Virus record (IMG/VR): IMGVR_UViG_3300036466_000106 | Span: 1-38,700 of that record | Direction: 5' to 3' (one strand) | DNA from: a virus | DNA: 38,700 nt | Part shown: one piece after another, positions 1-15,789 of the stretch | Layout: every line of letters begins with the position of its first letter | Numbering within the stretch: the first letter of the stretch is position 1 | The notes under the pieces: model-generated | Told to the model about the DNA's origin: nothing | Database searches by the model: none | The model's input: only the letters and a program-made list of their open reading frames with translations | Made by a program: the position numbers and the translations under genes

Positions 1-265
1 TACATATCTGACCTACTGGAGACCAGATAGTTGTAGCTGTACCTGCCTTGACATCAATCTTAGCCCTAGCCCATGCCTTTCCAGTTAGACGTCTTTGACG
101 CTTAATGAATCGAGATGCAGCAGCCTCGATCTTAGCCTTAGCAGCTTTATTCTCCTTCTTAGCAATCTCCTTGTCAGGATTATTTAAATCGAATTTAGAT
201 ACATCAACACTGATTACCTCCTGTTGTTCTATTGCTGAAGATGGAACTCCGAACTGAAACTCATC
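1..265 (-). CDS. Family A DNA polymerase, exon 2 (C-terminal part, runs off left edge)
   Basis: This is the downstream exon of the split DNA polymerase gene. Read on the minus strand from 265, the frame opens with GAT GAG TTT CAG TTC (DEFQF). Joined to the last exon 1 codon CAT it restores the motif C triad HDE, which carries a catalytic metal-binding Asp of family A polymerases. The frame stays open to base 1 (88 codons) with no stop, so the C-terminus lies outside the window. The segment after motif C is rich in Lys/Ala/Glu and is already longer than the roughly 50 residues that follow motif C in T7 DNA polymerase, which suggests an extended tail. There is no ribosome binding site, as expected for an internal exon. 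Confidence 0.85.
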
Positions 266-1043
266 CATACACTTCAACATTGCTCGTTAGGCAATGCCCG
301 TTACACTTAGGTAACTGCCCTTGCTTTCGCAAGGTATGCGACTATATCACAACCCACCTAAATGGGTTCCCTCTGTTTCGATTGCACTTGCAACCTACCC
401 TACTAAGTTCAGCTATTACTGCTTTTCGGTAGTCTGTGAACGTTGGTTTAAATATCTATAAGTTATGTGTGACCATTGTCTCCCACTGCGTATGCTATTG
501 ATAGTCCCTCTGCTCACACCGAGGCCTCTCGCCAGCTTACTTATGTTCAACTTGGTACTTGAATTTAGTGCTTCACAGATCTTTATGATAGTTTGTTCAC
601 TTATCTTACAGTTGGCATTATTGAAGCCAACTGCACTTCTGTTTCCATTATCATAACTCTGCTGGTTGTTCTGTGACTTAGTTACGTAACTTAGGTTGTC
701 TGGATGATTGTTTGTCCTATCATCATCTTTATGTCCAACCTCATATCCTTTTGGACATTCTCCATAATATGCTAATGCAACAAGCTGATGGTGTGATATT
801 GCAATCCTTTTACCCTCAACATGTATTGCGCTCACCATATACCCCTTCCCATTATTAGACCACTTCAGTGGACTACCATTACGTTTACTCAGAACAGTAC
901 CATCTTCTAGAACTTTATATCCAAAAACTTCTTTCATACTTAAACCCTCGCTGCTGATTGGCATATCCCTTCAGGACTTAGCTTTCCAGCAATTAAGAAG
1001 GTTATTCAATGACAGTTACCTGCCAAGGCCACAATTATTATTT
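266..1043 (-). ncRNA. Group I intron interrupting DNA polymerase motif C, with HNH ORF
   Basis: A 778-nt intervening sequence on the minus strand. Exon 1 ends in U (CAT) and the intron ends in G (GTGTATG), the group I rule. Exon CCAT pairs with intron GTGG near 1033, giving P1 with a U.G pair at the splice site. Core elements read in order: P motif AATTGCTGG (981-994), Q motif AATCAGCAGC (947-959), R motif GTTCACAGACTACC (428-441), S motif GATATAGTCGC (338-348); GACTA of R pairs with TAGTC of S to form P7. P9 is a CCTTGC/GCAAGG hairpin with a GAAA tetraloop (319-334). A further CATTGC/GCAATG hairpin lies near the 3' end. The HNH gene is inserted between Q and R, that is in P6/L6, as in the T4 td intron. 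Confidence 0.93.
416..937 (-). CDS. Intron-encoded NUMOD4/HNH homing endonuclease
   Basis: A 173-aa protein beginning MKEVFGYKV. The N-terminal part fits NUMOD4 (FGYKVLEDGTVLSKR), followed by an HNH nuclease region with HHQLVALAYYGECPKGY, VGHKDDDRTNNHPDNLSYV and Asn-rich residues, and a C-terminal helix-turn-helix of NUMOD type (LARGLGVSRGTINSI). The open frame extends upstream to 964, but the ATG at 937 is preferred because GAGGG lies 7 nt before it. The product would cut intronless DNA polymerase alleles and drive intron homing. The last codons overlap the intron R/P7 element, so the same bases serve protein and ribozyme. The Shine-Dalgarno sequence also lies directly beside the Q element. 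Confidence 0.9.
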   Translation of the reverse strand: MKEVFGYKVLEDGTVLSKRNGSPLKWSNNGKGYMVSAIHVEGKRIAISHHQLVALAYYGECPKGYEVGHKDDDRTNNHPDNLSYVTKSQNNQQSYDNGNRSAVGFNNANCKISEQTIIKICEALNSSTKLNISKLARGLGVSRGTINSIRSGRQWSHITYRYLNQRSQTTEKQ

Positions 1044-3329
1044 ATGGTAGAATGTAAACAGTTCGACAAAGGTGTTGGCTTTATACCCATCACCCAATAC
1101 TACTAAACCTTGTTCCTCCAATTTTTCCATTGCATACACCAAGGCTGTCTTACAGATGATAGCACCTGTGGATTGCAGCTTTAGGTTTAATGCACTATGG
1201 GTTGAACGAACGATTAACTTACGACCATCAAGGCCAACTAAGAAACCTTTCTCAGCTTGTTTGGTAATACGATCTATACAGGCACCTAGTGGTGTTAAAC
1301 CTTCCATGATACGCTTACGGACAATACCACCTAAGATTGTATCTTGGGCTGATTTTAGTGTAAGTGACTCTTTCTTTGGATTCCAGCGGCTGTGTCTCCA
1401 CATACCTGCACCATCTTGTACCCATCCACGTAATGCCATTTTCTCTAATGAGGCAAACTGATCACGGCAATTAGGTACATCCGCTAGAGATCCCAATTTG
1501 TCATCTCCAGCTCCGTACATCAACGCATAGGTTGGGCCTTTCGCAACACTACGAGTGGTAAACATGTCAGGGTTTAGCTGCCAAAAAATGTGGTGTATAT
1601 CCCCATCAACAATTTCTCTTGTGGTATCCTCATCTCCCATTTCATGAGCCAAACATCTAAGCTCCAAGCCCGAGGCATCTGCCCCTACCATCTTTCCACT
1701 TTCATAGGCAGTGAAGCACCTACGCATATCCTCTCCATAGAGAGCACCACCAGAAGGAACGTTAACTATCCCAGCGTGTCTCGATCTTGCGGTGGGGGTT
1801 CCCATAGGATTGTTAACAGGTGTAATCCTCCCATCAGGACGTATTTTATTCATCCAACCCTTAGTAGGATCTTCGAAGTTAAGGATTGTTGTTCTACGTG
1901 CCTTGGTGATCAGATACTCTTTCAGCATCTCACCAACACCACTACCTCCAATAGTATCAAAACTATCTTCTGTCAATCTGGGATTACCTTTCTCAGTAAA
2001 CTCAGAGGGAACCCATGTTGTATAGCGTTGCAGATACTCTAACACTTGGGCATTTGAACCTAGATTATAGTTAGCCCACTTGATCCTTGTGAATGGCCCA
2101 ACAACATCCTCATGTGTCATTCTATACTTTGATGGTGACTGCAATCCAGCATCATCCTCATATGCATTTGGGATCCTGTCTTTTGCTTCCACAGCAGGTT
2201 TGGCCTTTTTAGCCCTTATTGCCTTCTGTATCACCTTCCCATTCTCATCCTTAACAGCCTCTACAGCTTCCACAGCAGGAACTTCAGGTTGATATGGCTG
2301 TGCATCTTTACCAAGCCAATAAGTCTTCACTGCGCTTGATATAGAGCCATCCTTGTTGAATGGTTTCCATACTGGTTGTGGTTTGTTACCAGAATCTTCA
2401 GGCCACTCAAACCCATCTGGAATACGTGATAGTCCAGAGAACTTCAACATAGCTTCCTTATAGGTTTCCCAATTGACCTTAGTCCCGCACCGATAAAAAT
2501 CCAAACGGAATGGCATAGTTGGGATTAGTTCAGCTTCAATTTCAGCCAACCGTTTGTCAAGTCTAGCTACTAGATTCTCTGCATGTTCTTTGTCGAAGGG
2601 AAATCCCCAAGCTTCAGAGTGAGAGATCCAAAATGCTGCCATGTGCTCAGTATGGAGTGCTTCAGTCCAGTCAATGTTGCATTCAATTAGATCAGCTTCA
2701 CGTTCAGCTTCAAGTGCCATGTGTACATCTTCAAGGATCTCTACGTCACGATAGCAACGTCTGTACATGTCAATACTAAAATTGAGCCAGTCTTCATGAA
2801 CAACTTTCTCACCCTTACCAATACGTAATGCCCAACTCTCAATGCTGTGTGGGCCTGTTGTTGAACCATCCACATACGGCCTATCTGAGAACTGGGTCTG
2901 CGACTGCACTAATGTATCTAACATGTTGTTGCGATGTACATGTACATTTAACAATTTACGCATTAATGGGAAGTCAAATCGGCAACCATTATGGAAACAC
3001 TGTACACCAATATGGTTTGTGAACTTACCCAATAGGCTCAAGGGTAGTACAGTAACATTTTTACGTTGATACTCTCTATTGTGCCTTTCAATGGATCGTC
3101 TGTGGAGCTTCAATACATCATCATTGATAAAATCGAAGCAATGTCCACCTTTGCCTTTTAACTTATAACATGCCATCCAGACTGTATCAGCTTCTTTATG
3201 AATTACAAGCTGACCACCTTCAATCTTCTTGATGTCCTCCAGTAATCCATTAGCCTCAATGTCACCATACATCATAGCTCCACGTATTTCCTCTGGGAAT
3301 GTGTAGCTCTTAATTTCATCTTCGGTCAT
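1044..3329 (-). CDS. T7-like family A DNA polymerase, exon 1 (exonuclease and most of polymerase domain)
   Basis: Codons 1-762 of the replicative polymerase. The 3'-5' exonuclease domain shows motif I DIEANG (D23, E25), motif II FHNGCRFDFPLMRKL and motif III YRRCYRDVEIL. Polymerase motif A is VGADASGLELR (D551), and motif B is RSVAKGPTYALMYG (K597), with Tyr at the T7 Tyr526 position. The frame runs one codon past H762 into a stop inside the intron, so unspliced mRNA yields a 763-aa protein lacking the motif C Asp. Splicing at 1044/265 gives HDEFQF. An AGGAGGTG sequence lies 11-12 nt before the ATG. The gene is last in the leftward replication operon, 23 nt after the SF1B helicase gene. Thioredoxin-loop length was not assessed. 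Confidence 0.96.
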
Positions 3330-3352: not shown

Positions 3353-4633
3353 CTAACCGTGTCTGCTAATCCAAGTAAGTCTATTTATAGCCCTCGTGAG
3401 GACTGTATATAGCCATCTACGTTTCATATCAGTTGACTGTCCACGCATCACCTCTTCGATGACACAAACACTGTCCCACTGACTGCCCTGACAACTATGT
3501 CCTGTAAGACAATATCCAAACTCAAATATGTCAAGAGTTGTTCTACCAAATATCTTGGGATGTTCATACCCATCAAAGTAATTGGTGTAAACCTTTAGCC
3601 CATAATATTGATTACCAGCTTCATCCTTTCCATCCATGATCAAACAACTTTCTTCTTCACGAATAGCGGTTACTTCAAGTATAAGACCATTAGTCATACC
3701 TGTAATTTTGTTGTTACGCTTACAGATAAGTGACTCACCAACCTGCGGATATCTACCACTGAAACCCTTGTACTCGCGTAATGCTTCATTGAATGAGTGT
3801 CTGGTAGCGTTGGTATAGCACACAACCATATCATGACCTGCAATGAACTCTAGGTTGTTTGCCCATTCCTTGCCAAGTTTAGTAGCGTCACCATTAACAC
3901 CATAAGTACCTTTAGCAACTGTAATACCCTTACGTACATCTGTGGCTACTTTGATGATCCCACTGTTAAGTGCTTGTCTATGAACCTCTTCAAGTTTGTA
4001 GTCTGGGACTTCCATAACATTACCATCACCAGACACAGGTGGTAGCTGCCCGTGGTCGCCAGTATAGAGTATGGGGATACCTAATGATTCTAGATCCGAG
4101 CGCATTGAGTCATGAACCATAGAGGCCTCATCTACAACAATCAATTCATACGGAATGGATTGAGGTGCCTTTAACTCAAACACCATTTCGGAGGGATCAT
4201 CCTCAGAAGGAACAACATCATAAATCAATGAATGGATTGTCTGTGCTTCAAGTCCCTTGGCTCTTAACACATTGGTTGCCTTCCCTGTATATGCACAGTA
4301 AACAATACCCACCTCAGATCCGTCAGCATTCCTAAGTGCAGGAAAAACAACGCTAAGCAGACTCGTCTTGCCACACCCAGAATATCCACCCAGTACCAGT
4401 GGCTTGAGTGCTCCAGCATCCCACCAGTCATGTATGCCACGATAAGCATGAAGTTGGTATGCATCTAAGTCTTCAAATGTAATAACCTTCTTCATGCCTG
4501 AGGCTTCATGAGTGGATGCTGGTGAGACTTTCATATTAAACTTTGCCTTACGTCTTTCTTCACGTTCACGCCTTGATGAACGCCTCTGAGAGCGTATTTG
4601 AGAGGGTGTTAGCTCAACTTGCTCTATTGTCAT
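3353..4633 (-). CDS. Dda/RecD2-like SF1B DNA helicase
   Basis: A 426-aa ATPase. Walker A is GGYSGCGKTSLL (K89), Walker B IVVDEASMV, then motif III GDHGQLPPV, an Arg-containing motif IV region, motif V with TGHSCQGSQWDSV and motif VI RRWLYTVLTRA. This order is diagnostic of UvrD_C_2-type SF1B helicases such as T4 Dda and RecD, which move 5' to 3' on single-stranded DNA and help replication start or bypass bound proteins. The first 35 residues are a highly basic Ser/Arg stretch (QRRSSRREREERRKAKF), unlike Dda. Its start overlaps the end of the primase-helicase gene by 20 nt, and GGGAGGA precedes the ATG, so the two are translated from one leftward mRNA. Confidence 0.92.
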   Translation of the reverse strand: MTIEQVELTPSQIRSQRRSSRREREERRKAKFNMKVSPASTHEASGMKKVITFEDLDAYQLHAYRGIHDWWDAGALKPLVLGGYSGCGKTSLLSVVFPALRNADGSEVGIVYCAYTGKATNVLRAKGLEAQTIHSLIYDVVPSEDDPSEMVFELKAPQSIPYELIVVDEASMVHDSMRSDLESLGIPILYTGDHGQLPPVSGDGNVMEVPDYKLEEVHRQALNSGIIKVATDVRKGITVAKGTYGVNGDATKLGKEWANNLEFIAGHDMVVCYTNATRHSFNEALREYKGFSGRYPQVGESLICKRNNKITGMTNGLILEVTAIREEESCLIMDGKDEAGNQYYGLKVYTNYFDGYEHPKIFGRTTLDIFEFGYCLTGHSCQGSQWDSVCVIEEVMRGQSTDMKRRWLYTVLTRAINRLTWISRHG

Positions 4634-6515
4634 ACCATCCTCCCATTTTAGGCTTGTTTGATTCTGAGTATTGTTTCTCTTTAGCTTTCAATGGACACAC
4701 CATATCTTTATGTAATGATGCATCGTAATTCAGCTTACCAGTTTTATTGTCATACACATAACCACCATCAACAAGACCTACTGCCTCACCTATCTCCCTA
4801 CATTTAAGTATACGGAAGAAACGGGCACCACTAAGGGTCTCATGTTGAATATCTGCTTCCACGGAAATACAATTCCACACCTGCTGGAGTACACCTGCTG
4901 AACCACGGATGTTGTTCTCACTGATCTCAGCTCCACGGGCAAATTGGTTGTTACCCCCACCCCTATTCAAGTGTATTACTGATAGCAGATGAACATCGTG
5001 TAGTTCGGTAAACTTGTACATCTCTTCTAAGAGTGTATCCAATTCACGCCTCTCATCATCACTTCCATTTGTTGCCATAGAAAGATGATCCACAAGAATC
5101 ATTGTTGCCCCTTTAGCATGGAGATAGCGTATCTTTGACATCAGTGCATCCCTGCCTATAGACCCATTATGGGTGAGGAAGATGTGCTTGTCTGCAATGT
5201 AAGACATAGCACGATCACGATCTTCTTGTTCAAACATGTCAGGGTCTTTACGTAATAGATTGAGTGCAACCCCGAGTTCAGCAGCAATGTACCCTTGAAC
5301 AGTTTTCTTATCCTGCTCCTCTAGGAAGATTGAACCAATACACCAACCATGCTCTTTAGCCATATGGTGTCCGATCAATCTAGCAATGGTTGACTTTCCT
5401 ACACCACTCGCTGATAGCAGTAAGGTGTGTTCTCTTAGTCGGAATCCACCGATTCTATCACTCACACTTTTAAATGGTATGTCATATCCAATAACTGGAT
5501 CAGCAAAAAGTTCCTCCCATGTGTACTCACTACCAGCTTTGATATCTGAGGGGCTGAATGGCTTTGCATCAAAATACATTGATGCATAAATGTCAATAGC
5601 CTCATCACCACCAACCTTGAGTATGTCACATGGGTCTTTTTTAACACCTACCCACTCTGGTACATAAATCTTGTCCACCCCAAAGATGCTGGTTGCCACC
5701 TCTAATGATTCCCTTCCATCCCTATCAATAACTGGGTTATCACCTAACCAGTAAATCTTACGGTACTTTGATAATTCCTCGTAGTGATGCATCAGTGCTT
5801 TATGAGCACCCTTAGCTCCATTAGGAAGGGAGATTACCTGTGGTATAGTTTTCTTGATGCGTCTGTTTTCTGAACGCTTATTCATTGCAAGATGTAGTTG
5901 ATAAGCAGCAGCAGCATCCTCCTCACCTTCAACTATGATGATCAGATTGTAGTTGTTATTCCTGAGGTTCCAACCAAACATATCTGTGCCAGTGATGTTA
6001 CCAATATCTGTATCCCAGCGCTTTGGTAACTCACGAACCTTATAACCATATAGCTCATCCTCCACATAGTAAGGGTAGTACCGTTTAAGTGGCTTACGGT
6101 TGCCCTCAGAGACCTCTGTCTTAATTCCAAAGTGTCTGTCAGCATCAGGTGTAATACCTCTATGCTTGTCTCCTAGAAAGCCAAAGTGTGCAATGTCATC
6201 AATGGTAAGTTTCTTCTGGTATGTCTGTTGGTATGTATATCTTGGTGCTCTACGTGATGTACGTTTGTCATCAGAGGCTTCAACCTCCTCCTTTGAGAAG
6301 TGTTTGTTACAGCGACTACAGTAGCCAGTACCATTGTCCCTCACCATCAGATGATTTCCTGTTTTATCACCCCCATTCTCACGGCAGGTTGGGCATGGCT
6401 TATTACCTACAATGGTTGACTTTTCCTGAGTTCGCCTGCTTCTACGGGAGGTTCTGCGGGAGGTTCTTGATGATGGTGCTGATTGTGACTCAGGAATGTT
6501 ATTATTAATGATCAT
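4614..6515 (-). CDS. T7 gp4-like primase-helicase
   Basis: A 633-aa bifunctional replication protein. The N-terminus has a Cys4 zinc ribbon (C41, C44, C66, C69; CPTC...CSRC) for template recognition. It is followed by a TOPRIM-type primase core (IIIVEGEEDAAAAYQL, then YWLGDNPVIDRDGRE). The C-terminal RecA-like helicase has Walker A SASGVGKST (K374), Walker B TMILVDHLSM and the QVWNCISVE region. It would unwind DNA and lay primers for the adjacent polymerase. Length fits gp4 (about 560-570 aa) plus additions. Residues 15-30 form an SR-type repeat (SSRTSRRTSRRSRR) ahead of the zinc ribbon. It is first in the leftward operon, with a good GGGAGG site before the ATG. Confidence 0.94.
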   Translation of the reverse strand: MIINNNIPESQSAPSSRTSRRTSRRSRRTQEKSTIVGNKPCPTCRENGGDKTGNHLMVRDNGTGYCSRCNKHFSKEEVEASDDKRTSRRAPRYTYQQTYQKKLTIDDIAHFGFLGDKHRGITPDADRHFGIKTEVSEGNRKPLKRYYPYYVEDELYGYKVRELPKRWDTDIGNITGTDMFGWNLRNNNYNLIIIVEGEEDAAAAYQLHLAMNKRSENRRIKKTIPQVISLPNGAKGAHKALMHHYEELSKYRKIYWLGDNPVIDRDGRESLEVATSIFGVDKIYVPEWVGVKKDPCDILKVGGDEAIDIYASMYFDAKPFSPSDIKAGSEYTWEELFADPVIGYDIPFKSVSDRIGGFRLREHTLLLSASGVGKSTIARLIGHHMAKEHGWCIGSIFLEEQDKKTVQGYIAAELGVALNLLRKDPDMFEQEDRDRAMSYIADKHIFLTHNGSIGRDALMSKIRYLHAKGATMILVDHLSMATNGSDDERRELDTLLEEMYKFTELHDVHLLSVIHLNRGGGNNQFARGAEISENNIRGSAGVLQQVWNCISVEADIQHETLSGARFFRILKCREIGEAVGLVDGGYVYDNKTGKLNYDASLHKDMVCPLKAKEKQYSESNKPKMGGWYDNRAS

Positions 6516-6751: not shown

Positions 6752-9391
6752 ATGAGAGATATCCAATTAGAAAGAGAGAGGCTGCAACTAGATGGTGCGA
6801 CAAGTAAAGATATCTTATTATCAATGGAGGAGAATAAGTCTGGTGGCTTCCTTGGTGGTATGCTTGCCAAGGTTCTTAGCAGTGAGCATATAAGAGATCA
6901 CCATGACAAGGCTGTAAGGAAGAGACATGCATTCTTCAAGATAACTAAAGATCTCGAAATGGAGGAGGTCGCATTCTGTGGCTTATCCATCCTGCTCTCA
7001 AGTATAGCAAGCTCACCTTCTCTAACTGTTACTGATCTTGCAGTTAGGATTGGGGAGGATTTACTTATACGTAGTGGATCTCCTGAGAAGGTATTCTCCA
7101 CCGATGAGGCTACTATCCGTCTGAAGGTATCAGCAGGTATTTCATTACTTGATCTAACCCTGAATGCATTACCTTCAAGTTGGTTCCATGTAGCACTGCG
7201 TAGGGTGTCTAAAGTTGAGTCTGTGTGGGAGGTATCCTCAACAGATAAGTTTAACAAGGTTGTAGAGGATAATGCTGAAATCTTCCCAATGTTTAAGCGT
7301 GAGTTTAAGCCTATGGTTTGCCGTCCAGATTCTTGGGAGGGTATCACTGGGGGTGGCTACCTTTCTGAAGTGGCTAAGAAGATAGTTCCACTAATGAAGC
7401 GGAATGCTCAACATGAGTGCCCTAGTCAACTTGCACTCGATGCTATTAATCAGATACAGCAAACACCTTACAGAGTTAATAAGCGTATTTATGATGTTAT
7501 GCTTAAACTTAAGGAAATTAAACCTGCTGCAATGGGTGATGTGTTTCGTGAGGTAAAGGGTACTTTTGATGTTCCTTGCCCAGTTGACAAAACAACTGAT
7601 GCTTATATATGGGATAAGGTTGAGGGTGAGAAGTTAGATCCTAGAACTGGTAAAATGAAAAAGGCTATGGTTCTCGCTAATCGTGATGAAGAGTCAGTAG
7701 CCAAACGGAAGGCTTTCTTCTCTTGGGCAGCAGAGAGGGATGCACATAAGAAGCATGAGTTAGGCAGGGAAGGTATAGCTAAGACACTAGACGACTGCCT
7801 TAACCTAGCAGATGAATTGTTAATGTATGAGAACTTATATTGGCCTATTACAAATGATAGTCGTAGCCGTATGTATCCAGCAGCAATGTCTGGTATTAAC
7901 ATACACGGTTCTGACTTCCAGAAAGCTATTGTTGAGTTTTCAGAGGGATTGCCTTTAGATCATGATGGTGATGGTGAAGGTGCTGTCTACGCTATCATTA
8001 AGACGCTCTGTAACCACTGGGGCAAGGATTCAGGTAATGGCGTTAAGACTGACAAGCTAACTAGGAAAGCTGCTGAGGATTGGATTGAGGAAGCCTCAGA
8101 GTGGGTTGTTAAATGTGCAAGAGATCCTTTTGGTGAAGATAGTCAGCAATGGATGTCTGCTGATAGTCCATTATTGTTCCTAGCTGCTGCTATGGAATGG
8201 GCTGACTGGTTAGATTATTATGCTGAACACGGTGACTATGGTTTTGTTAGTAGACTTAGTGATCCTAATGATGCTTCGTGCTCCGGTGCTCAAATCTTAT
8301 CAGCAATGACTCGTGATGAGATTGGTGCTATGCACACTAACCTCATGAATATGGATGTTCAGGATCTCTACATGGCTGTAGCTGGTAAGGTGACTGAAAA
8401 TTTATTGGAGGTATTTGAATCAGAGACATTAGCACAGGATTGGTTAGGCCGCAGTGGTATCATTGCTGCAATCACTAAAGTTATAGCTGGTGAAGGTCAT
8501 GATGTTTTATCTGACAAAACTCAGGAATTAATCATTGACTTGCACAATAATGGACTCCATACTGATGACATCTTCTTGGAAATATACAAGGAAATGGATG
8601 ATGTTGAAAGGTTGAGAATGAGTTATATTATTCGCAATCTAGTTAAGAAACCAGTGATGGTAAAGTTCTACTCTGGTACTCGATATGGTAATATTGAGCA
8701 CGTTTCTGAATTTATAACAAAGGAGAAGTGGGGCACCCATTTTAGGTGTGAAAGTATAGGCAAGGCAGCGGTATTCATGGGTAACTTGATTTATGATTCT
8801 ATCAATCAAGTTGTCAAAGGTGCTGGGCAGGTTATGGAGTGGTTTGTGCATGTTGCAGATGTATTTGGTAACTCAGGTAAGGGTATTCGACATGTAACCC
8901 CTGCTGGGTATCCAATATCACTGAAGAAGTACAAAACCAAGGGTGTAAGGCTAAAGGAGCTATTTCAAGGGAACTTGTGTAAGTTTACTGTACACATACT
9001 TGATCTCAAGGAAGATGAGGATGGAAGCTTAAAACCACAGATTGATGTGGCAAAGTTTAAATCAAGTATTGCACCTGACATTGTTCACAGCTTTGATTCG
9101 TCACTATTGATGATTGTTGCTGAAAGATGTAAACGGGAGGGTATCAACAACTTGTGGATGATCCATGACAGTCTAGGTGCTCACTGCTGCTATTCAACTA
9201 GATTCAGCAGGATCATCAGAGAGAGTTTCGTGGAGATGTTTAGCAAAGATGTTTTACAGGACATGTATATCAACTTCTGTGAGCAACTAGGTGATGACAG
9301 TTTCTTGTTGCAATCACCAGAGGATTTCGGTATAAAATACGGAAAATACGATTTGAATGAGATTCTAAAATCTGAGTTTGCATTCAAGTAA
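6752..9391 (+). CDS. T7-like single-subunit DNA-dependent RNA polymerase
   Basis: An 879-aa protein, close to the 883 aa of T7 RNA polymerase and collinear with it. The NDSRSRMYPAAMSG segment matches T7 DWRGRVYAV. Motif A is PNDASCSGAQILSAMTRDE with D507 at the T7 Asp537 position. Motif B is VKKPVMVKFYSGTRYG with K632 and Y640 (T7 Lys631, Tyr639). Motif C is MIHDSLG with H805 and D806 (T7 His811, Asp812). The C-terminus SEFAFK matches the T7 foot SDFAFA. It should transcribe phage genes from its own promoters independently of host sigma factors. GAGGAG lies 11 nt before the ATG. One oddity is Ser where T7 has Gly640 after the discriminating Tyr. Its specific promoter could not be recognised in this window. 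Confidence 0.96.
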   Translation: MRDIQLERERLQLDGATSKDILLSMEENKSGGFLGGMLAKVLSSEHIRDHHDKAVRKRHAFFKITKDLEMEEVAFCGLSILLSSIASSPSLTVTDLAVRIGEDLLIRSGSPEKVFSTDEATIRLKVSAGISLLDLTLNALPSSWFHVALRRVSKVESVWEVSSTDKFNKVVEDNAEIFPMFKREFKPMVCRPDSWEGITGGGYLSEVAKKIVPLMKRNAQHECPSQLALDAINQIQQTPYRVNKRIYDVMLKLKEIKPAAMGDVFREVKGTFDVPCPVDKTTDAYIWDKVEGEKLDPRTGKMKKAMVLANRDEESVAKRKAFFSWAAERDAHKKHELGREGIAKTLDDCLNLADELLMYENLYWPITNDSRSRMYPAAMSGINIHGSDFQKAIVEFSEGLPLDHDGDGEGAVYAIIKTLCNHWGKDSGNGVKTDKLTRKAAEDWIEEASEWVVKCARDPFGEDSQQWMSADSPLLFLAAAMEWADWLDYYAEHGDYGFVSRLSDPNDASCSGAQILSAMTRDEIGAMHTNLMNMDVQDLYMAVAGKVTENLLEVFESETLAQDWLGRSGIIAAITKVIAGEGHDVLSDKTQELIIDLHNNGLHTDDIFLEIYKEMDDVERLRMSYIIRNLVKKPVMVKFYSGTRYGNIEHVSEFITKEKWGTHFRCESIGKAAVFMGNLIYDSINQVVKGAGQVMEWFVHVADVFGNSGKGIRHVTPAGYPISLKKYKTKGVRLKELFQGNLCKFTVHILDLKEDEDGSLKPQIDVAKFKSSIAPDIVHSFDSSLLMIVAERCKREGINNLWMIHDSLGAHCCYSTRFSRIIRESFVEMFSKDVLQDMYINFCEQLGDDSFLLQSPEDFGIKYGKYDLNEILKSEFAFK

Positions 9392-9420: not shown

Positions 9421-9810
9421 ATGACTAACAATAATAACACTACAAACTCAGCTACATCTTCTACTAACTCAATGCAGTGGGATACAGCACAAATCTGTGA
9501 AGCAAGCTTCATGTTCCCTACAAGTGACTTCAATGATGTTGATGAGTTGAATAATGCTGATGAAGAAGTGTTCTCAAATATGATGATTGCAATGATTGAA
9601 CTCTTGCCACCATTGAGTGATGTTGAGCAACAAGGGCTGAAGAAGGCTGTATTGTCTGGTAATCGTTTACGAACTTACTACCTTGTACTTAAGCTGGTTG
9701 ACCACTATGCCGATTGTCTGGCTGAAACTCAGGTGACACATCAAAGTGAGCATACACCAGATTATCTAGAAGCCCGTGGGTATCAGATGGATTCACAGGA
9801 AGCTCTGTAA
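9421..9810 (+). CDS. Small acidic protein of unknown function
   Basis: A 129-aa protein, not recognised. It opens with an Asn/Thr/Ser-rich low-complexity stretch (about residues 2-17), followed by an acidic, mostly helical body (DFNDVDELNNADEEV, then LRTYYLVLKLVDHYADCL). There is no signal peptide or membrane segment and a single cysteine pair is absent. AAGGA lies 10 nt before the ATG, 29 nt after the RNA polymerase stop, so it is probably co-transcribed with it. An early regulatory role is possible from position only. Confidence 0.7.
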   Translation: MTNNNNTTNSATSSTNSMQWDTAQICEASFMFPTSDFNDVDELNNADEEVFSNMMIAMIELLPPLSDVEQQGLKKAVLSGNRLRTYYLVLKLVDHYADCLAETQVTHQSEHTPDYLEARGYQMDSQEAL

Positions 9811-9897
9811 TCAACCCTAAGAGATTATCAATAATAAGTGGTGTGTTGGTGTGGATTAGTTTAGAAGTCTTCACCAGCAGCCATTAAGGAGGTTTAA

Positions 9898-9936
9898 ATG
9901 GATAACAGTCATAATGTTAAGGGATTTTATGGGTAA
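9898..9936 (+). other. Possible 12-codon leader ORF overlapping the DUF3223 gene start
   Basis: The only strong Shine-Dalgarno in this gap, AAGGAGG (9886-9892), is placed 5 nt before ATG 9898. That ATG opens a frame of 12 codons (MDNSHNVKGFYG) ending inside the next gene. The DUF3223 frame starts at ATG 9914 or 9929, shifted by one base. Either this is a translational leader that delivers ribosomes to the next gene, or a sequence error or frameshift has split one start. Confidence 0.3.
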
Positions 9937-10612
9937 AGCTACTTATGAGGTTGGAGGTGAGTTTTTTGAGAACAAATCCGCAATCTATGATCGTTGTAAA
10001 TATGTATTAAACAATTCTTGGGGTAAGTTGAATGGACAAGATTTCACTTTTATGGATGCAGTATTCAGAATGCATCCTCGTTATGAAGATAAGAGAGGAA
10101 ATGGTGCCTACAGTATTCACGTAGTCTCTAGTATATCAAATGCCAGACATAATATGTTCCTTGTGCACCGATCAGATGGAAGTGTTGTAGATTTCAGCTA
10201 TGTAAAAGTAGTTAACCCTATATCACAAGAGACGAGGATAAAAAAGATACTTCGCCACTCTGTAGCGGGACAGGTAAGATCAGTGCGTTCTAAGCTAATC
10301 AGGGAAAATCAAGACTGTAGGGGGTACGTATTATGTGAGGTAACAGGTTTAAAGATAAAACCAAAAGATATGCATTTAGATCACTACCCTCTGCAATTTG
10401 AAGAAATTGTGGCTATGTGGTTTAAGCGGAATAATCTGACAATTGGATCCTTTAAGATAAAACCACCTAAAGGTGTCTCCACTTATTGGACATTACCCCC
10501 AGACGTTGAAGTGTCCTTTATCAAGTTCCATCTAGAGGTTGCAGAGTATCGTATGGTACTGGATAAGGTAAATCTTCAGAGAAGTAAATCTGGTGTAAAA
10601 CTAGATGTATAA
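9914..10612 (+). CDS. DUF3223 (DCL-like) protein with HNH-like C-terminus
   Basis: 232 aa. Residues about 10-100 match the DUF3223 pattern: an F-x-NKSA start, a central FxxxxFRMHPRYEDKRGNGAYS, and a VHRSDGSVVDFSYVKVV end. Residues about 125-165 carry a CxxTG...HLDHYPLQFEE segment that looks like a degenerate HNH nuclease centre (His-Asp-His). Proteins of this kind are common as free-standing phage genes and are assumed to be nucleases or DNA-binding proteins; no function is proven. It lies between the RNA polymerase and TV-Pol-like genes. ATG 9914 has no good ribosome site; ATG 9929 (MGKATYEV) with AAGGGA 4 nt ahead is an equally plausible start. Confidence 0.65.
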   Translation: MLRDFMGKATYEVGGEFFENKSAIYDRCKYVLNNSWGKLNGQDFTFMDAVFRMHPRYEDKRGNGAYSIHVVSSISNARHNMFLVHRSDGSVVDFSYVKVVNPISQETRIKKILRHSVAGQVRSVRSKLIRENQDCRGYVLCEVTGLKIKPKDMHLDHYPLQFEEIVAMWFKRNNLTIGSFKIKPPKGVSTYWTLPPDVEVSFIKFHLEVAEYRMVLDKVNLQRSKSGVKLDV

Positions 10613-10893
10613 CAGACCTTGACAATAAACACCTCCTTGTACTAAGATTCAAGGAGGTAGGACTTGGATCAAGTGGGTTTTTAGCTAAATATAAGGAGAT
10701 TTAGGGCACTCTTCCTAGTACAAGTTTTATCACCACAAAATAGCCTATTAAACTATCTATTTTTTGAAGGTAAGTGTCGGTTTTTAAACAATAAAAAGCT
10801 AAGATTTATAAAAATTTCTTTGCTAGTGGGGTACACACTCATAATACTACCCAATTATGCTACTGGACTACCATTAAGATTATAGGAGGATAC
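10613..10893. promoter_or_regulatory. Non-coding gap with two hairpins before the TV-Pol-like gene
   Basis: 281 bp without a credible ORF. It holds a perfect 9-bp hairpin (10631-10639 with 10650-10658), a weak ACTTG/CAAGT hairpin followed by GGGTTTTT (10662-10680), and a 6-bp hairpin showing AAGGAG in its loop (10685-10704). The 10730-10815 part is A+T rich. The first two may together end transcription of the RNA polymerase cluster. No clear promoter was found. Confidence 0.5.
10631..10658 (+). terminator. Hairpin burying a Shine-Dalgarno sequence; possible attenuator or terminator
   Basis: ACCTCCTTG pairs perfectly with CAAGGAGGT over 9 bp, with a 10-nt loop. No T-run follows directly, so it is not a textbook terminator. 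The 3' strand is a full Shine-Dalgarno motif but no start codon follows it at usable distance. Confidence 0.35.
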
Positions 10894-12198
10894 ATGTATG
10901 TAATAGATTATAAGATACCTCAACAACTGAATGGTGTATCTTCAAAGATAGAAGATATGTATTGGAGGGGTAAGGAAGAGAAAGGTACACCTGCAAAGAG
11001 ACTATCAGTGTTGAATGCAATTAAATGTATTATACTGAATGTGCACAACCAGAGGAAGTATTCTAAAAATAAGAAAATAATAATCTCACTTGATGAAGCA
11101 AAATACAGCCTTAAGAGGATTGTTAATGGAAGGTCTACAGGTAGGAAGGTTAGCTATACTTCAACCAAGGAGGTTCTTGATTTCTTAGTTAACAACAACC
11201 TGATCAAGTTGATTGTAGGTGGTAGGCGAGAGGGAGGAAAAACGGGGTGGGGTTTTAATGTCCAAGAAAGAATTTTCAGTGATAAAAAATGGATACCTGT
11301 AAAAGTTGAGTATAGTGTATTGGTTGTGCTCCCCTTATTGGAAGTCTTGTTACCAGAGTACCAACCACATGAGATTGATAATGTGATGGTGTTAAAGGTT
11401 AAGAAGGGGAAAGGGTCTAGAGAGTCAACTTACAGATTCACTAATTGGAACAGGGAACCATATCACTTCCAGAGAGAGTATAATAAATTTAGCCTTAAGA
11501 GGGATGTGATGCTCGATGGTTACAAGAGAGATGTACAAAGCTACAAGGTTTTTAACAATAACTTTAATCAAGGTGGGAGATCATACATGAGTGAATATAT
11601 GAATATACAGCAGTTAACTAAGGCTGAGAGGAAGATGGTTGAAATTGATGGAAAGGAGACAGCGATACTTGACTACACAGCATTTGAGGTAACTATCCTA
11701 TATACACTTCTCCAAGAGGTTATTGAGGATGATGACCCATATGAAATTGAGGTAGATGGGTATAACAAAGAACTTCTTCGGAAGATTAGTAAAGGTTTAC
11801 TGTTAAGGATGATAAATACAGAAAGCCCCTCTGAAGCTTATAGGGCTGCTAATAATTTTATCCGTGAAGAGTTTGACGTACAAAAGCTATATGATGACCA
11901 CTTAATACCAGAGGATCGGGTCTGTGTTAAGCACATGCTTGAGTTACTTGAGGATAAGCATTCTCAGGTAATGCACAAGTTCTATGAGGGGATTGGTGGT
12001 CAGTTACAGTATTATGGTAGCTTGATTACTGACTATATACTGGAGTATTTCATGCAGCGTGGCATCTTAGTTATACAGGTGCACGATGAGTATATTATCC
12101 AAGAAGAATCTGTTGATGAGCTACATTCTGTCATGAAGAAGGCATTTACAAAGGTTCTTGGTTTTGATGAGAATGTCCGCATTAAGAGGGAAAAGTAG
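10894..12198 (+). CDS. TV-Pol-like minimal superfamily A polymerase (candidate primase-polymerase)
   Basis: A 434-aa protein whose C-terminal half carries all three palm motifs of superfamily A polymerases in order. Motif A is AILDYTAFEVTILY (D260), motif B is LRKISKGLLLRMIN (R296, K300) and motif C is VIQVHDEYIIQEE (H397, D398, E399). A preceding FNNNFNQGGRSYMSEYMN segment and the DDDPYEI stretch after motif A fit the TV-Pol family described from bacterial mobile elements and Sputnik-type viruses, for which combined primase and DNA polymerase activity was proposed. There is no exonuclease domain. The N-terminal half is basic and probably helical, with wHTH-like segments. AGGAGG precedes the ATG. 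Function in this phage is inferred only; confidence in the polymerase fold is good, in its activity moderate. Confidence 0.72.
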   Translation: MYVIDYKIPQQLNGVSSKIEDMYWRGKEEKGTPAKRLSVLNAIKCIILNVHNQRKYSKNKKIIISLDEAKYSLKRIVNGRSTGRKVSYTSTKEVLDFLVNNNLIKLIVGGRREGGKTGWGFNVQERIFSDKKWIPVKVEYSVLVVLPLLEVLLPEYQPHEIDNVMVLKVKKGKGSRESTYRFTNWNREPYHFQREYNKFSLKRDVMLDGYKRDVQSYKVFNNNFNQGGRSYMSEYMNIQQLTKAERKMVEIDGKETAILDYTAFEVTILYTLLQEVIEDDDPYEIEVDGYNKELLRKISKGLLLRMINTESPSEAYRAANNFIREEFDVQKLYDDHLIPEDRVCVKHMLELLEDKHSQVMHKFYEGIGGQLQYYGSLITDYILEYFMQRGILVIQVHDEYIIQEESVDELHSVMKKAFTKVLGFDENVRIKREK

Positions 12199-12257
12199 CT
12201 TGATATCAAGATATTTGTAAGTCATTGATTTACAATGATGCCCTTAAATACCCTCAA

Positions 12258-12295
12258 TGTGATAGTAGGGTTGTTAATTAACACTTACTATCACA
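12258..12295 (+). repeat. 38-bp inverted repeat, possible operator or packaging site
   Basis: TGTGATAGTA (12258-12267) is the exact reverse complement of TACTATCACA (12286-12295). The 18-nt centre contains the smaller palindrome GTTAATTAAC. No T-run follows, so a protein-binding dyad is more likely than a terminator. Confidence 0.55.
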
Positions 12296-12440
12296 ATAAC
12301 CATTGACCTCAACACAGCCTATAGGCAGGTTCTAGAATGTCTCAAAAAAGGGAATAGGTGTGTTGGGGGTTTGGTGGTGGATGATCACTGATTGTCCACT
12401 TGAGATTATTGTTGCTAATGCCGATAGTCCAATTTTAGAT

Positions 12441-12486
12441 GTGCCATCCAATCAATTATTAAAAATAAAGGATGGCACTCTTTTTT
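12441..12486 (+). terminator. Rho-independent terminator after the TV-Pol-like gene
   Basis: GTGCCATCC pairs perfectly with GGATGGCAC (9 bp), followed by TCTTTTTT. The loop is about 20 nt and A+T rich. It closes the middle transcription unit just before terS. Confidence 0.85.
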
Positions 12487-12514
12487 AATTTATAAAATAG
12501 ACCGTGGGGGTATC

Positions 12515-13099
12515 ATGGCAGAAGATAAAAGTAAGCCAAGGAAATCAAAACGCGGTTTTGCTGGGATTGATCCAGAGATTGCTGAACAGTCCAGACTTAA
12601 GTCATTGGAGACTCGTAGGGCTAACGCAGAGATGCGTAACAAGAGACTTGAGGCAGCTAAGAAGCTAAGGAATCAAGTTACTGAGTTGCGTAAAGAGATT
12701 GAGATACTTGAACAGAAGGCTGATGAGTTAGATGGTGAGATAACCGCTAACAAGAATCGCAGGAAGTATGAAGCTCAACTCACAGCAGACTTAGAAGAAT
12801 TGATAGGTGGTGTGGTCAGTCCGCAGTACCTGAAACAAACTATTGCACATGCAATCAGAACTGGATTGTCAGCAGACCAAGTTATTACACCAATACAGGC
12901 TGCAATGGACATATTGCATGATCCAGATGTTACTCGCAAGGAGCGACTTGATGCAATCAAGCTACTGTCAGCATTTGAGAGCAGCAAGCCTGTTGCAAAA
13001 GAATCTGACACGAGTGATACACTTGGCTCAGTGCAGGATGAATTAAATAAGCTAAAAGCCAAGCATGGTGACTTAGCGCCTAAACGTAAGAAGGTGTAG
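12515..13099 (+). CDS. Terminase small subunit (probable)
   Basis: A 194-aa protein immediately upstream of the large terminase gene, which is the standard place for TerS. It opens with a basic segment (KSKPRKSKRGF), then a long coiled coil (about residues 28-80, RLEAAKKLRNQVTELRKEI...). A helical region follows with ISxQYLKQTIAHAI-like content and a basic end (PKRKKV). Sequence similarity to a named TerS family is not evident, so the call rests on position, size and coiled-coil oligomerisation potential. It would recognise phage DNA and regulate TerL. GGGGGT precedes the ATG by about 5 nt. It ends 2 nt before terL begins. Confidence 0.65.
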   Translation: MAEDKSKPRKSKRGFAGIDPEIAEQSRLKSLETRRANAEMRNKRLEAAKKLRNQVTELRKEIEILEQKADELDGEITANKNRRKYEAQLTADLEELIGGVVSPQYLKQTIAHAIRTGLSADQVITPIQAAMDILHDPDVTRKERLDAIKLLSAFESSKPVAKESDTSDTLGSVQDELNKLKAKHGDLAPKRKKV

Positions 13100-13101
13100 C
13101 T

Positions 13102-13369
13102 ATGAAGAATGCACTAGCTAGGAAGACATTTGAACATCCGTATGATCTAAAGACCGCCAGATGGATACGAGAGAAATTCATTCTTGAGGAAGACACAGAG
13201 AAGCGGGATGCATTCCTAGCTGAGCTAGTTGAGATGTTCGGAAAGAGAGCATCCGAAGTCTTAGCATATATTGGTAATGATTATCGAGTGCTTATGCGTG
13301 ATGATCAAATGCACCCTGAGTTTAATGACAGAACATGGAATGGTTTAGTGTTCTGTTGTGGACGTGCGT
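13102..13369 (+). CDS. Terminase large subunit, exon 1 (N-terminus to Walker A)
   Basis: Codons 1-89 plus one base of the packaging ATPase. It ends ...FCCGRA and T, the first half of the Walker A loop. Joined to exon 2 the codons read GRAYGKT (G87 to T93), a normal terminase P-loop. Unspliced, the frame continues only 12 codons into the intron to a stop at 13405-13407, giving a 101-aa fragment with no ATP site. The spliced gene is 1581 nt (526 aa), a typical TerL length, and the exon lengths sum to a whole number of codons. AAGAAGG within the end of terS is the likely ribosome site. Confidence 0.93.
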
Positions 13370-14476
13370 TAACAAGGTTTAGCCAGGCGCACGATAAACC
13401 CCTTTAATTGCTGGAACACCCAATAGGCTTACACTACAATATCACCCAGTAATGAGGTGACGACCTGTGAAAATGTGTAGGATGTTTAATGGGCAATCAG
13501 CAGCCAAGGTTCCCAAGTGGAACAAGGTTCAACGATCATCGAAAAGCACAGCAATGTGAACCTAGTAGAGTAGGGATAAAATAATCCTGAAACGGGGGGA
13601 TCTGGTATTGACACCAGATATGATATGATCTAATCTAGTTGGAGACAACTAGCAGTCACGGAGACTACAATGGACTATAAGAAAATTTATGATTCAATAA
13701 TTAAAGCAGCAAACAACAGGGTGATAATCTCTGGATGTTACACTGAATTGCACCACATACTGCCTATTTGCATAGGAGGGACAGATGATGGTGATAATCT
13801 AGTTAGGCTTTATTATAGAGAACACTTCTTGGCTCATTGGTTGTTATCCAAAATTTACAAAGGTACAAACAAAGAAAAACTTATGCTTCGTGCTCTAACT
13901 GCGTTGAACATGAATGGTGGTGAAGGTCTCAGGAAGATAGAGCCATACATGCGGACTGTGTTCAAGAGAGCTTACTCTCTTTCTGTTGCAGGAGACATGA
14001 ACCCTATGTATAACAGGAAACCTCATAACTTGGAAAAGCCTGTGTGGTATAGTGGGTCAGAAGGTAGGCATATATTCTCAGATGAGAGGCCAACCGATGA
14101 TGCAGTCTTGGGGAGGAAATTATCCAAGGGGCATTCATCTGTTTCCGGCGCTAACAATCATATGTATGGGGTTAATTTACTTGAGAGTATGCCAGAGAGT
14201 AAGTTGCTGTCAATGATGCGTAATAGGAAAAACACATATAATAGTAAATCAGATGAAGAAAAGGCTTTGATTAACAAGGCCAGAGCTTTTGGATACAGGT
14301 TTAATATAGATGGTGTTTATTATCCGACTATGACACATGCAACTGCTGGTACTGGACTTGGGCATAAGGCAATTACCCGTAGGTGTAAGTCTGAAGAATC
14401 AAAATATTCTGAATGGAAGATGTTTGTAAGAGAAAGTAAATTTAAGGCTGGAGAGTATTAACTCTTTAATAATATG
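13370..14476 (+). ncRNA. Group I intron interrupting the TerL Walker A codons, with HNH ORF
   Basis: 1107 nt. Exon GTGCGT (13364-13369) pairs with intron GCGCAC (13387-13392), a 6-bp P1 with U.G at the splice site. The intron ends in G (AATATG). Core: P motif AATTGCTGG (13406-13414), Q motif AATCAGCAGCC (13495-13505), R motif GTTCAACGATCATC (13527-13540), S motif AGATATGATATGATC (13616-13630); GATCAT pairs with ATGATC for P7. P9 is CTAGTTG/CAACTAG with a GAGA tetraloop (13635-13652). Unlike the first intron, the endonuclease gene lies after the core, between P9 and the 3' splice site, leaving only 15 nt after its stop. Confidence 0.93.
13670..14461 (+). CDS. Intron-encoded HNH homing endonuclease
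   Basis: 263 aa. The HNH centre is at the N-terminus: TELHHILPICIGGTDDGDN, LVRLYYREHFLAHWLLSKI, which is the common phage HNH form with the HH pair, GGTDDxDN and REHFxAHxLL. The middle part contains AGDMNPMYNRKP and GANNHMYGVN, NUMOD3-like Asn/Gly DNA-binding patches seen in HNH and GIY-YIG homing enzymes. The C-terminus (residues about 200-263) has a possible further DNA-binding motif. It should cut intronless terL near the Walker A codons. GGAG lies 6 nt before the ATG, directly after the P9 hairpin. It is unrelated in architecture to the HNH protein of the DNA polymerase intron. Confidence 0.9.
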   Translation: MDYKKIYDSIIKAANNRVIISGCYTELHHILPICIGGTDDGDNLVRLYYREHFLAHWLLSKIYKGTNKEKLMLRALTALNMNGGEGLRKIEPYMRTVFKRAYSLSVAGDMNPMYNRKPHNLEKPVWYSGSEGRHIFSDERPTDDAVLGRKLSKGHSSVSGANNHMYGVNLLESMPESKLLSMMRNRKNTYNSKSDEEKALINKARAFGYRFNIDGVYYPTMTHATAGTGLGHKAITRRCKSEESKYSEWKMFVRESKFKAGEY

Positions 14477-15789
14477 ATGGAAAAACCTTCTGTGGTGCTC
14501 CAGCAGTAATTGATTACGCCATAGAATACCCTAATGCTCGTATTGGTTTGATTGCCCCTACATTTGGTATGGGACGAACCAACATGATTGAGGGTTCATC
14601 TGGTATTCTCCAGATATCCCCAAAAGGGTTCAAACCATCTTATAACAAATCTGATGGTTCTCTGACTTGGCCTAACGGTGCTACCGCTAAGCTATTCTCC
14701 GCTGAAAACGGAGACCGTGTTCGTGGTGAGAACTTGCACTTCCTATGGGCAGATGAGTTCTGCTTTTTCAAATTCACCAATGGGGACGATGATGTATGGA
14801 AGATGGCTAAGATGGCATTACGTGCTGGTAGAGATCCTAAGTACCTTATCACCACATCTCCTAAGCCAATTAGCCAAATTAAAGAGCTTAAGGACTTATC
14901 TGATAAACCAAGAAGCAAGATCATCTTCCGTACAGGGACAACATTCGACAACTACTCACTACCTCAATCATACATTGATGAAGTTAAGTTGGGCGAAGGT
15001 ACAAGTCTATACAACCAAGAAATCTTAGGTATGATCCTTGAGGAGAATACCAATGCCATCTTCACTATGGAGAGCATCAAGCGTATCGAATTGGATGTTG
15101 CTGGTGAGAACTATGATGATTATGATACTCGCCTACAGAAGCTTGTAGAGAGCATGGACAGCATTGTCATAGGTGTTGACCCTAACGTGGTTGAAGATAT
15201 TAAGTCGGATGAAACAGGTATTGTGGTTTGTGGCAGGAAGGGTGATAAGGGTTATGTCTTTAAGGATGCTTCCCGTAGAGGAAAGATTTCAGATATCTAC
15301 AAGACAGTAATTGAACTCTATTACACCTATCGTGCTGATGCAATTGTTGTTGAAACAAACAACGGTGGGGATTTTATCCCTAATGCCATTTTCAACATTG
15401 ATCCATATGTGGTAGTTGAGAAAGTGTTTGCAAGTCGGGGTAAACGTGCTAGGGCAGAGCCAATTGGTCTTCTATATGAACGTGGTAAAATTTATCATGT
15501 TGGTATTCATCGTGAGTTAGAATCACAGATGACAGAGTATAACCCACAGGTGCATAGTAAATCACCAGATAGACTTGATTCTACAGTATGGGGTTTGACC
15601 TATTTATTCAAGTCAACTATGCGTGGATTATTCTCAGGTGAAGGTGTTGCTGCTGCATATGCAAGACCTAAGACTGAAGGTATCAGTAATCTGTATCAGG
15701 ATATGGAAGACTTACTTAAGACAGGCAATGCTTACAATCCATATGATATGACGACTGATAGTATAGATGATGATTGTTATGCAATCTAA
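14477..15789 (+). CDS. Terminase large subunit, exon 2 (ATPase and nuclease domains)
   Basis: The frame begins at the splice site with (T)AT GGA AAA ACC, completing GRAYGKT. The 413-aa open frame seen from TTG 14548 is only part of it. Motifs in spliced numbering are Walker B LHFLWADEF (D182, E183), coupling motif LITTSPKP, then the RNase H-like nuclease domain with GVDPN (first Asp D324), VVETNNGGDF and SPDRLDSTVWGL. The protein pumps DNA into proheads through the portal and cuts the genome at start and end of packaging. It ends DDDCYAI at 15789, followed by a long non-coding region rather than directly by the portal gene. Confidence 0.95.

Follow-up and report, generated by a model that had tools for sequence, protein, structure and literature searches.

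The closest described relatives of the polymerase considered here belong to divPolA2, a family described in 2024 in barbaviruses and their relatives by Yutin et al. (PMC11348598), whose members have an active-looking palm, lack both the exonuclease and the PolA thumb, and carry an N-terminal globular domain. There are up to three paralogues per genome, encoded beside a regular polymerase in variable neighbourhoods, and a role in repair or as an RNA polymerase was proposed as possible (PMC11348598). TV-Pol, which is named once in the same paper, in its introduction, was defined by Iyer et al. in 2008 on the basis of a beta-hairpin arginine, two catalytic aspartates, an RxxxK motif and a fingers aspartate, together with a two-helix coiled-coil thumb and, where present, an all-helical N-domain (PMC2579912). 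A subset of TV-Pols carries this N-domain and adjoins recombinases, and the carriers listed include Paracoccus, Sulfitobacter, Loktanella and Roseovarius, as well as Ma-LMM01 (PMC2579912). A third system is CcPol-MP, the PolA-SSB primase of SCCmec, which primes DNA synthesis (PMC7581432, PMC10061031), CcPol requiring its partner MP for priming (PMC7581432).

The locus compared here with these systems lies in a virus record of 38,700 bases (hereafter the window, meaning the whole stretch of DNA that was analysed). An open reading frame on the + strand (10894..12198) encodes a 434-aa protein that, judging from its residues and its model, is apparently an active polymerase of superfamily A (the DNA polymerase I superfamily), and its assignment to the divPolA2/TV-Pol type draws on the reading frame, PHROGs, the AlphaFold2 model and the conserved residues. 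The family phrog_4756, of unassigned function, matches the protein over its full length (E 1.8e-84), no Pfam family matches it above its cut-off, and no exonuclease domain was found in it, as a previous sequence-only reading of this DNA had stated.

The same window encodes a phage DNA polymerase I-like replicase (1038..3329, - strand; PF00476, E 2.4e-14; PHROGs) whose last part is probably missing, the phage's own DnaG/DnaB-like primase-helicase (4614..6515, - strand; Pfam, PHROGs) and a single-subunit, T7/N4-like RNA polymerase (6752..9391, + strand; PF00940, E 1.6e-57; PHROGs), 88% identical to its counterpart in the sister phage KASIA, a Shewanella phage of 91 kb. Three members of superfamily A had been said to sit within 12 kb, and the DNA polymerase, RNA polymerase and divPolA2 do lie within 11.2 kb; the third enzyme is additional to the other two, but the trio is not unique to this phage, since KASIA has all three as well. 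The novelty attributed to such a third polymerase was overstated: divPolA2 had already been described in tailed phages (PMC11348598), and tblastn detects relatives in 278 phage records, all below 60% identity, among phages of Vibrio, Rheinheimera (barbaviruses), Aeromonas, Pseudoalteromonas, Shewanella and others. In passing, the large terminase (13102-15789) and DNA polymerase (2-3329) genes of the window look split by HNH genes (13670-14461 and 416-964, respectively), the KASIA terminase and Pol I genes are annotated as three-piece joins around HNH genes, and this arrangement suggests introns or inteins.

The motifs of the 434-aa protein occur at the residues previously assigned to them. Motif A, ILDYTAFEV (11665..11691, + strand), contains the metal-binding D260, followed by E265, which aligns with the Glu of DYSQIE; the core of motif B, R296-x3-K300 (11779..11793, + strand), is followed by L304 and N308, the latter closing the RMIN segment (305-308); and motif C, VHDEYII (12079..12099, + strand; H397-D398-E399), contains the metal-binding D398. 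Before motif A lies a GGR...Q...R segment (G228-R246; 11575..11631, + strand), with the beta-hairpin arginine R229, then Q239 and R246, which the profile alignment matches to the GR..LQN.P.R stretch in Pol I. Conservation of the motif residues among homologues, which the earlier reading had taken as decisive, holds for D260, R296, K300 and D398, invariant like R246 and Y283 in 33/33 phage homologues, but not for E399, since position 399 is E in only 13 of the 33 phage proteins; H397 is mostly conserved. Across the 33 phage and 61 bacterial homologues together, R246, D260, Y283, K300 and D398 remain invariant, R296 has a single exception (one bacterial Lys), and R229, Q239, D281 and N308 are near-invariant. 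Position 265 is more variable: Glu in 19/33 phage proteins, His in 13 others, and His in nearly all of the 61 bacterial homologues.

A palm fold, whose absence from a predicted structure would have counted against the earlier reading, is present in the structural model. An AlphaFold2 model built from 48 sequences is confident (mean pLDDT 90.4, pTM 0.86; residues 112-138 disordered), and its best 50 PDB fold matches are all family-A DNA polymerases, with E down to 1.3e-6 and probability 1.00; the TM-scores are modest (0.26-0.36), as expected because palm and fingers alone are held in common. Sequence searches of the PDB gave less: with the single protein as query there was no meaningful match, and none with a profile of the bacterial relatives, while for a profile of 19 homologues the best match was DNA polymerase I (8jrb), a weak one (E 0.037) in which GR..Q....R...D and HD fall in register. 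In the model, the palm with motifs A, B and C is preceded by an N-terminal globular domain (residues 1-200; 10894..11493, + strand), which would stand in place of the PolA thumb. This domain shares homology with the N-domain that integrase-linked TV-Pols of bacteria carry, and its predicted order of helices and strands would suit a winged helix.

To which family does this polymerase belong? It is a new member of divPolA2, since the protein AUR84708, modelled by Yutin et al. (PMC11348598) and encoded in locus L012 of our set, shares a supported clade (98) with it in our tree, and since a barbavirus protein ranks third in the viral fold search with the window model. A tblastn comparison with Barba19A gives E 3e-19, and the relatedness to the founding barbavirus proteins and AUR84708 extends over the whole length of the sequence. 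The setting differs in two respects: the regular polymerase of barbaviruses is a PolB, whereas that of the window, a KASIA-related siphovirus, is a PolA (1038-3329), to which divPolA2 is again additional; and, unlike the divPolA2 genes of Yutin et al., that of the window lies near a T7/N4-like RNA polymerase. Scans of viral contigs needed alignments as queries: the single window protein found no relative and KASIA p092 no match, nor did an ICP1-type alignment match anything in bacterial genomes; distant members, once aligned, differed too much to be of use in a pattern search. Two shorter viral divPolA2-like reading frames (L039 4743-5699 and L040 4701-5684; 318 and 327 aa) branch in the tree between phage and bacterial sequences.

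The link to TV-Pol comes from the bacterial side. Two proteins of Rhodobacterales plasmids match the KASIA divPolA2; searching bacterial genomes with this Paracoccus/Thioclava pair brought up 180 relatives, and 79 loci were kept. When the phage profile was compared by hhalign with that of 34 bacterial proteins in an Iyer-type context, the two aligned over 378 columns (probability 100, E 1.8e-55), a stretch that takes in the N-domain. The viral fold searches of the window model and of a bacterial TV-Pol model are led by an identical set of 11 phage proteins, with a large gap after them in both. The tree places all 33 phage proteins across one branch from the 61 bacterial proteins. In 46/79 bacterial loci a tyrosine integrase of one DUF6538-bearing cluster lies within about 6 kb, and such an integrase gene is directly upstream of the Paracoccus TV-Pol gene. 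Several genera listed by Iyer et al. recur among these relatives, the match being at genus level. The copy of Paracoccus denitrificans DSM 413 (L044 2081-4148) is 97% identical to the query, its match is not one open frame, and it looks broken.

Homology to the integrase-linked TV-Pols that bacterial mobile elements carry thus extends over the full length of the window's divPolA2, and the features defining TV-Pol (beta-hairpin Arg, two catalytic Asp, RxxxK, fingers Asp) are all present, as R229, D260 and D398, R296-K300 and D281. The bacterial genes stand near tyrosine integrases, whereas the window has neither a recombinase nor a D5 helicase beside the polymerase gene, and the N-domain is mixed helix and strand in both phage and bacterial models. 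The fit to TV-Pol proposed by the sequence-only reading therefore narrows to the integrase-associated, N-domain-bearing branch: Ma-LMM01 gave no match to the divPolA2 profile, and the replication protein of the virophage Zamilon, a viral fold match at E 7e-4, is no closer than ordinary PolAs, so that the D5-helicase branch of TV-Pol, that of Sputnik and Ma-LMM01, seems to have no special closeness to divPolA2. A literature search found divPolA2 named only in PMC11348598 and its preprint, where the link to TV-Pol is apparently unstated; within the literature searchable, the connection seems to be stated here for the first time.

Comparison with KASIA shows the gene to be an exchanged allele occupying a swappable slot, not a fixed replication gene. 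The DNA of the two phages is about 85% identical on both sides of a window-specific stretch (exchange slot, 9901..12217), and the proteins flanking it are 88-94% identical, whereas no sizeable alignment is found in its interior, the contents of the slot being replaced. In KASIA, the slot holds a BCS1-like AAA ATPase and p092, another divPolA2, whose identity to that of the window is 20% in the multiple alignment and rises to 26% when the best 258 columns are taken. The polymerase of the window shares its slot with a gene for a HamC2-like DUF3223 protein (9914..10612, + strand; 232 aa), HamC2 being a Hachiman-type component in PADLOC. This HamC2 match covers nearly the full length (E 4.1e-20), and HamA or HamB neighbours were not seen; the KASIA ATPase is p094 (L024 9366-10628, - strand; BCS1_N and AAA). 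Just beyond the right end of the slot, a palindrome, TGTGATAGT...ACTATCACA (12258-12295), is largely conserved in KASIA. Colwellia phage 9A, which shares the replication module, gave no match to divPolA2.

Taken together, we favour, with a probability of about 0.6, the reading that the gene encodes a divPolA2, or integrase-linked TV-Pol, that would be catalytically competent and exonuclease-less, and that forms an exchangeable accessory cassette outside the replication operon. The palm fold, the catalytic residues, the full-length homology to TV-Pols and the allelic replacement in near-identical phages come directly from the computations; the enzyme itself is most likely an accessory DNA polymerase or primase-polymerase rather than a replicase. 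An accessory role is suggested by the exchange of the cassette and by the primase-helicase and PolA that the phage encodes separately. The clade of the window probably makes DNA rather than RNA, since E265 takes, in the alignment, the place of the sugar-gate Glu in motif A of Pol I, a preference read from this single residue; with Glu at position 265 in 19/33 phage proteins and His there in nearly every bacterial homologue, the choice of sugar may differ across the family. Fidelity would be low, given the missing proofreading domain and an Asn, N308, at what the RxxxK spacing leads us to take as the position of the O-helix Tyr of Pol I. The N-domain, replacing the thumb, may hold the template or a specific site.

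By analogy with the TV-Pol relative CcPol and its partner protein, the enzyme might also start strands itself. Both are superfamily A polymerases of the type found in mobile elements, without proofreading; CcPol, however, is a Pol I derivative that works with an OB-fold protein, whereas divPolA2 has another N-domain, and neither a conserved partner nor an SSB-like gene was seen beside it among the phage loci. No neighbour cluster is widely common to these loci, neighbours having been compared as clusters and not by fold. A likely use would be synthesis beyond the reach of the phage's primase and PolA, for priming or bypass where the DNA is damaged, blocked or defended, and conflict, be it with hosts, satellites or other phages, may drive the exchange of alleles; the benefit to the phage is a guess, and the literature search found no report of enzymatic activity for any member of this branch.

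A non-coding leader of 281 bases (10613..10893, + strand) lies directly upstream of the polymerase gene, and according to annotation tables leaders of about 100-280 bases precede divPolA2 in most phage loci. That of the window contains a promoter-like TTGACA-18-TAAGAT (10619-10648, + strand) that is by itself not above chance, a GTAAGTGT-type motif (10770-10783, + strand) and a Shine-Dalgarno AGGAGG (10884-10889, + strand); a scan of 9800-12600 for promoters found no more than in shuffled sequences, and a de novo motif search of the leaders gave no clean motif. Short-loop palindromes scoring at least 14 occur in 10/15 leaders of the window's clade and in 17/131 control gaps from the same loci (p 1.6e-5), in a test that was not blind, the palindromes having first been noticed by eye. 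Leaders fetched later have a palindrome in 3/3 cases, two of them scoring at least 14; examples are found in L002, L004, L026, L027, L031-L033 and L132-L134. The palindromes vary in sequence and often overlap a -10-like box, and the plain reading is an autoregulatory operator; in the window's own leader the palindrome is weak, and none contains G+C. A GTAAGTGTWTGAWT-like motif, which also came to notice by eye, hardly occurs outside divPolA2 leaders in the genomes tried; in held-out leaders it stands out within the clade (p 0.001) but not across the whole set (p 0.07), it is present in one of the three leaders fetched later, and it is a lead only. Two further candidates, an upstream non-coding RNA comparable to those of defence reverse transcriptases and N4-like hairpin promoters, were considered and are not put forward, the palindromes often lying on -10-like boxes, differing in sequence and being weak in the window.

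Could the enzyme make RNA instead? A small single-subunit RNA polymerase or RNA primase, transcribing a few genes or making RNA primers, is in our view an improbable alternative to an accessory DNA polymerase, although several features point to it. The D-P-Y at 281-283 resembles the DxY of T7 RNA polymerase, with Y283 invariant, and in most other family members the sugar-gate position is His instead of Glu. An RNA polymerase function was considered by Yutin et al., who reported mitochondrial and N4 RNA polymerases among the divPolA2 fold matches (PMC11348598), and the small-loop palindromes of the leaders have a shape known from N4 vRNAP promoters (PMC4496689). Against this, the best fold matches here are DNA polymerases, Glu occupies the sugar gate in the window's clade, and the phage already encodes an RNA polymerase. 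The palindromes, which often overlap a -10-like box and vary in sequence, would equally suit a repressor operator, and a G+C-containing one is missing from the leader of the window. T7/N4-type RNA polymerases have the same superfamily palm, and differ in their N-terminal RNA polymerase domain, which the protein of the window lacks.

The strongest case of allelic exchange is seen in ICP1. A block of 2.4-2.6 kb differs between two isolates whose flanks are 98.6-99.2% identical (L015 4282-6657 versus L018 4462-7077), each block containing its own helix-turn-helix (HTH) gene and a divPolA2, and the two polymerases are 21% identical and fall in distant clades of the tree. Among the ICP1 records of the phage collection, 39 have one block, 43 the other and none both, and each of the 53 isolates MW794140-MW794192 has exactly one of the two alleles, accompanied by its own type of HTH gene; the literature search found no paper on this pair. 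More widely, an HTH_3/HigA-like gene is directly upstream of divPolA2 in five loci (L004, L007, L015, L019 and L132), and an HTH_37-like gene in four others (L018, L020, L021 and L036), with a weaker case in L017; no upstream HTH gene is recognisable in the window or in KASIA.

These observations raise the possibility, which we hold only tentatively and consider unlikely, that the polymerase acts as effector in a conflict module, whether repressor-controlled, toxin-antitoxin-like or inter-phage. A small HTH protein would silence the polymerase until something triggers it, and the synthesis that it carries out, with or without a template, would harm the host, a satellite or a competing phage. 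Such a reading draws on the HTH genes lying directly upstream in distant clades, on the mutual exclusion of the ICP1 alleles, each travelling with its own HTH gene, and on the HamC2-like and BCS1-like genes that the slot holds in the window and in KASIA. It has to face the lack of a PADLOC match to the polymerase itself, the window and KASIA copies without a recognisable upstream HTH gene, and the many phage morons that are HTH-regulated yet are not toxins. In its widest and equally doubtful form, divPolA2 would be the effector of a widespread phage conflict module made of a cognate HTH protein, a palindromic leader site and an interchangeable polymerase. If so, the polymerase would be low-fidelity or self-priming, the leader palindrome would be an operator or an initiation site, deeply diverged and mutually exclusive alleles would be kept in one slot of phages that are identical elsewhere (as in ICP1, and in the window and KASIA), and divPolA2 synthesis would counter or trigger the defences of the host, a satellite or a rival phage. 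A core replication function, for instance as a dedicated lagging-strand or terminal polymerase, is very improbable: the gene has an intact active site and lies less than 12 kb from the replication genes, but it stands beyond the RNA polymerase in a slot filled with unrelated DNA in KASIA, is unmatched in Colwellia phage 9A despite the same replication module, and belongs to a family with variable neighbourhoods (Yutin et al., PMC11348598).

The accessory polymerase favoured here joins two families treated separately in the literature consulted, the divPolA2 of phages and the TV-Pol of mobile elements, the latter with a proven primase-polymerase among its members. ICP1 is a tractable laboratory phage in which both divPolA2 alleles exist in natural, otherwise nearly identical isolates, and the purpose of an extra phage polymerase is therefore testable.
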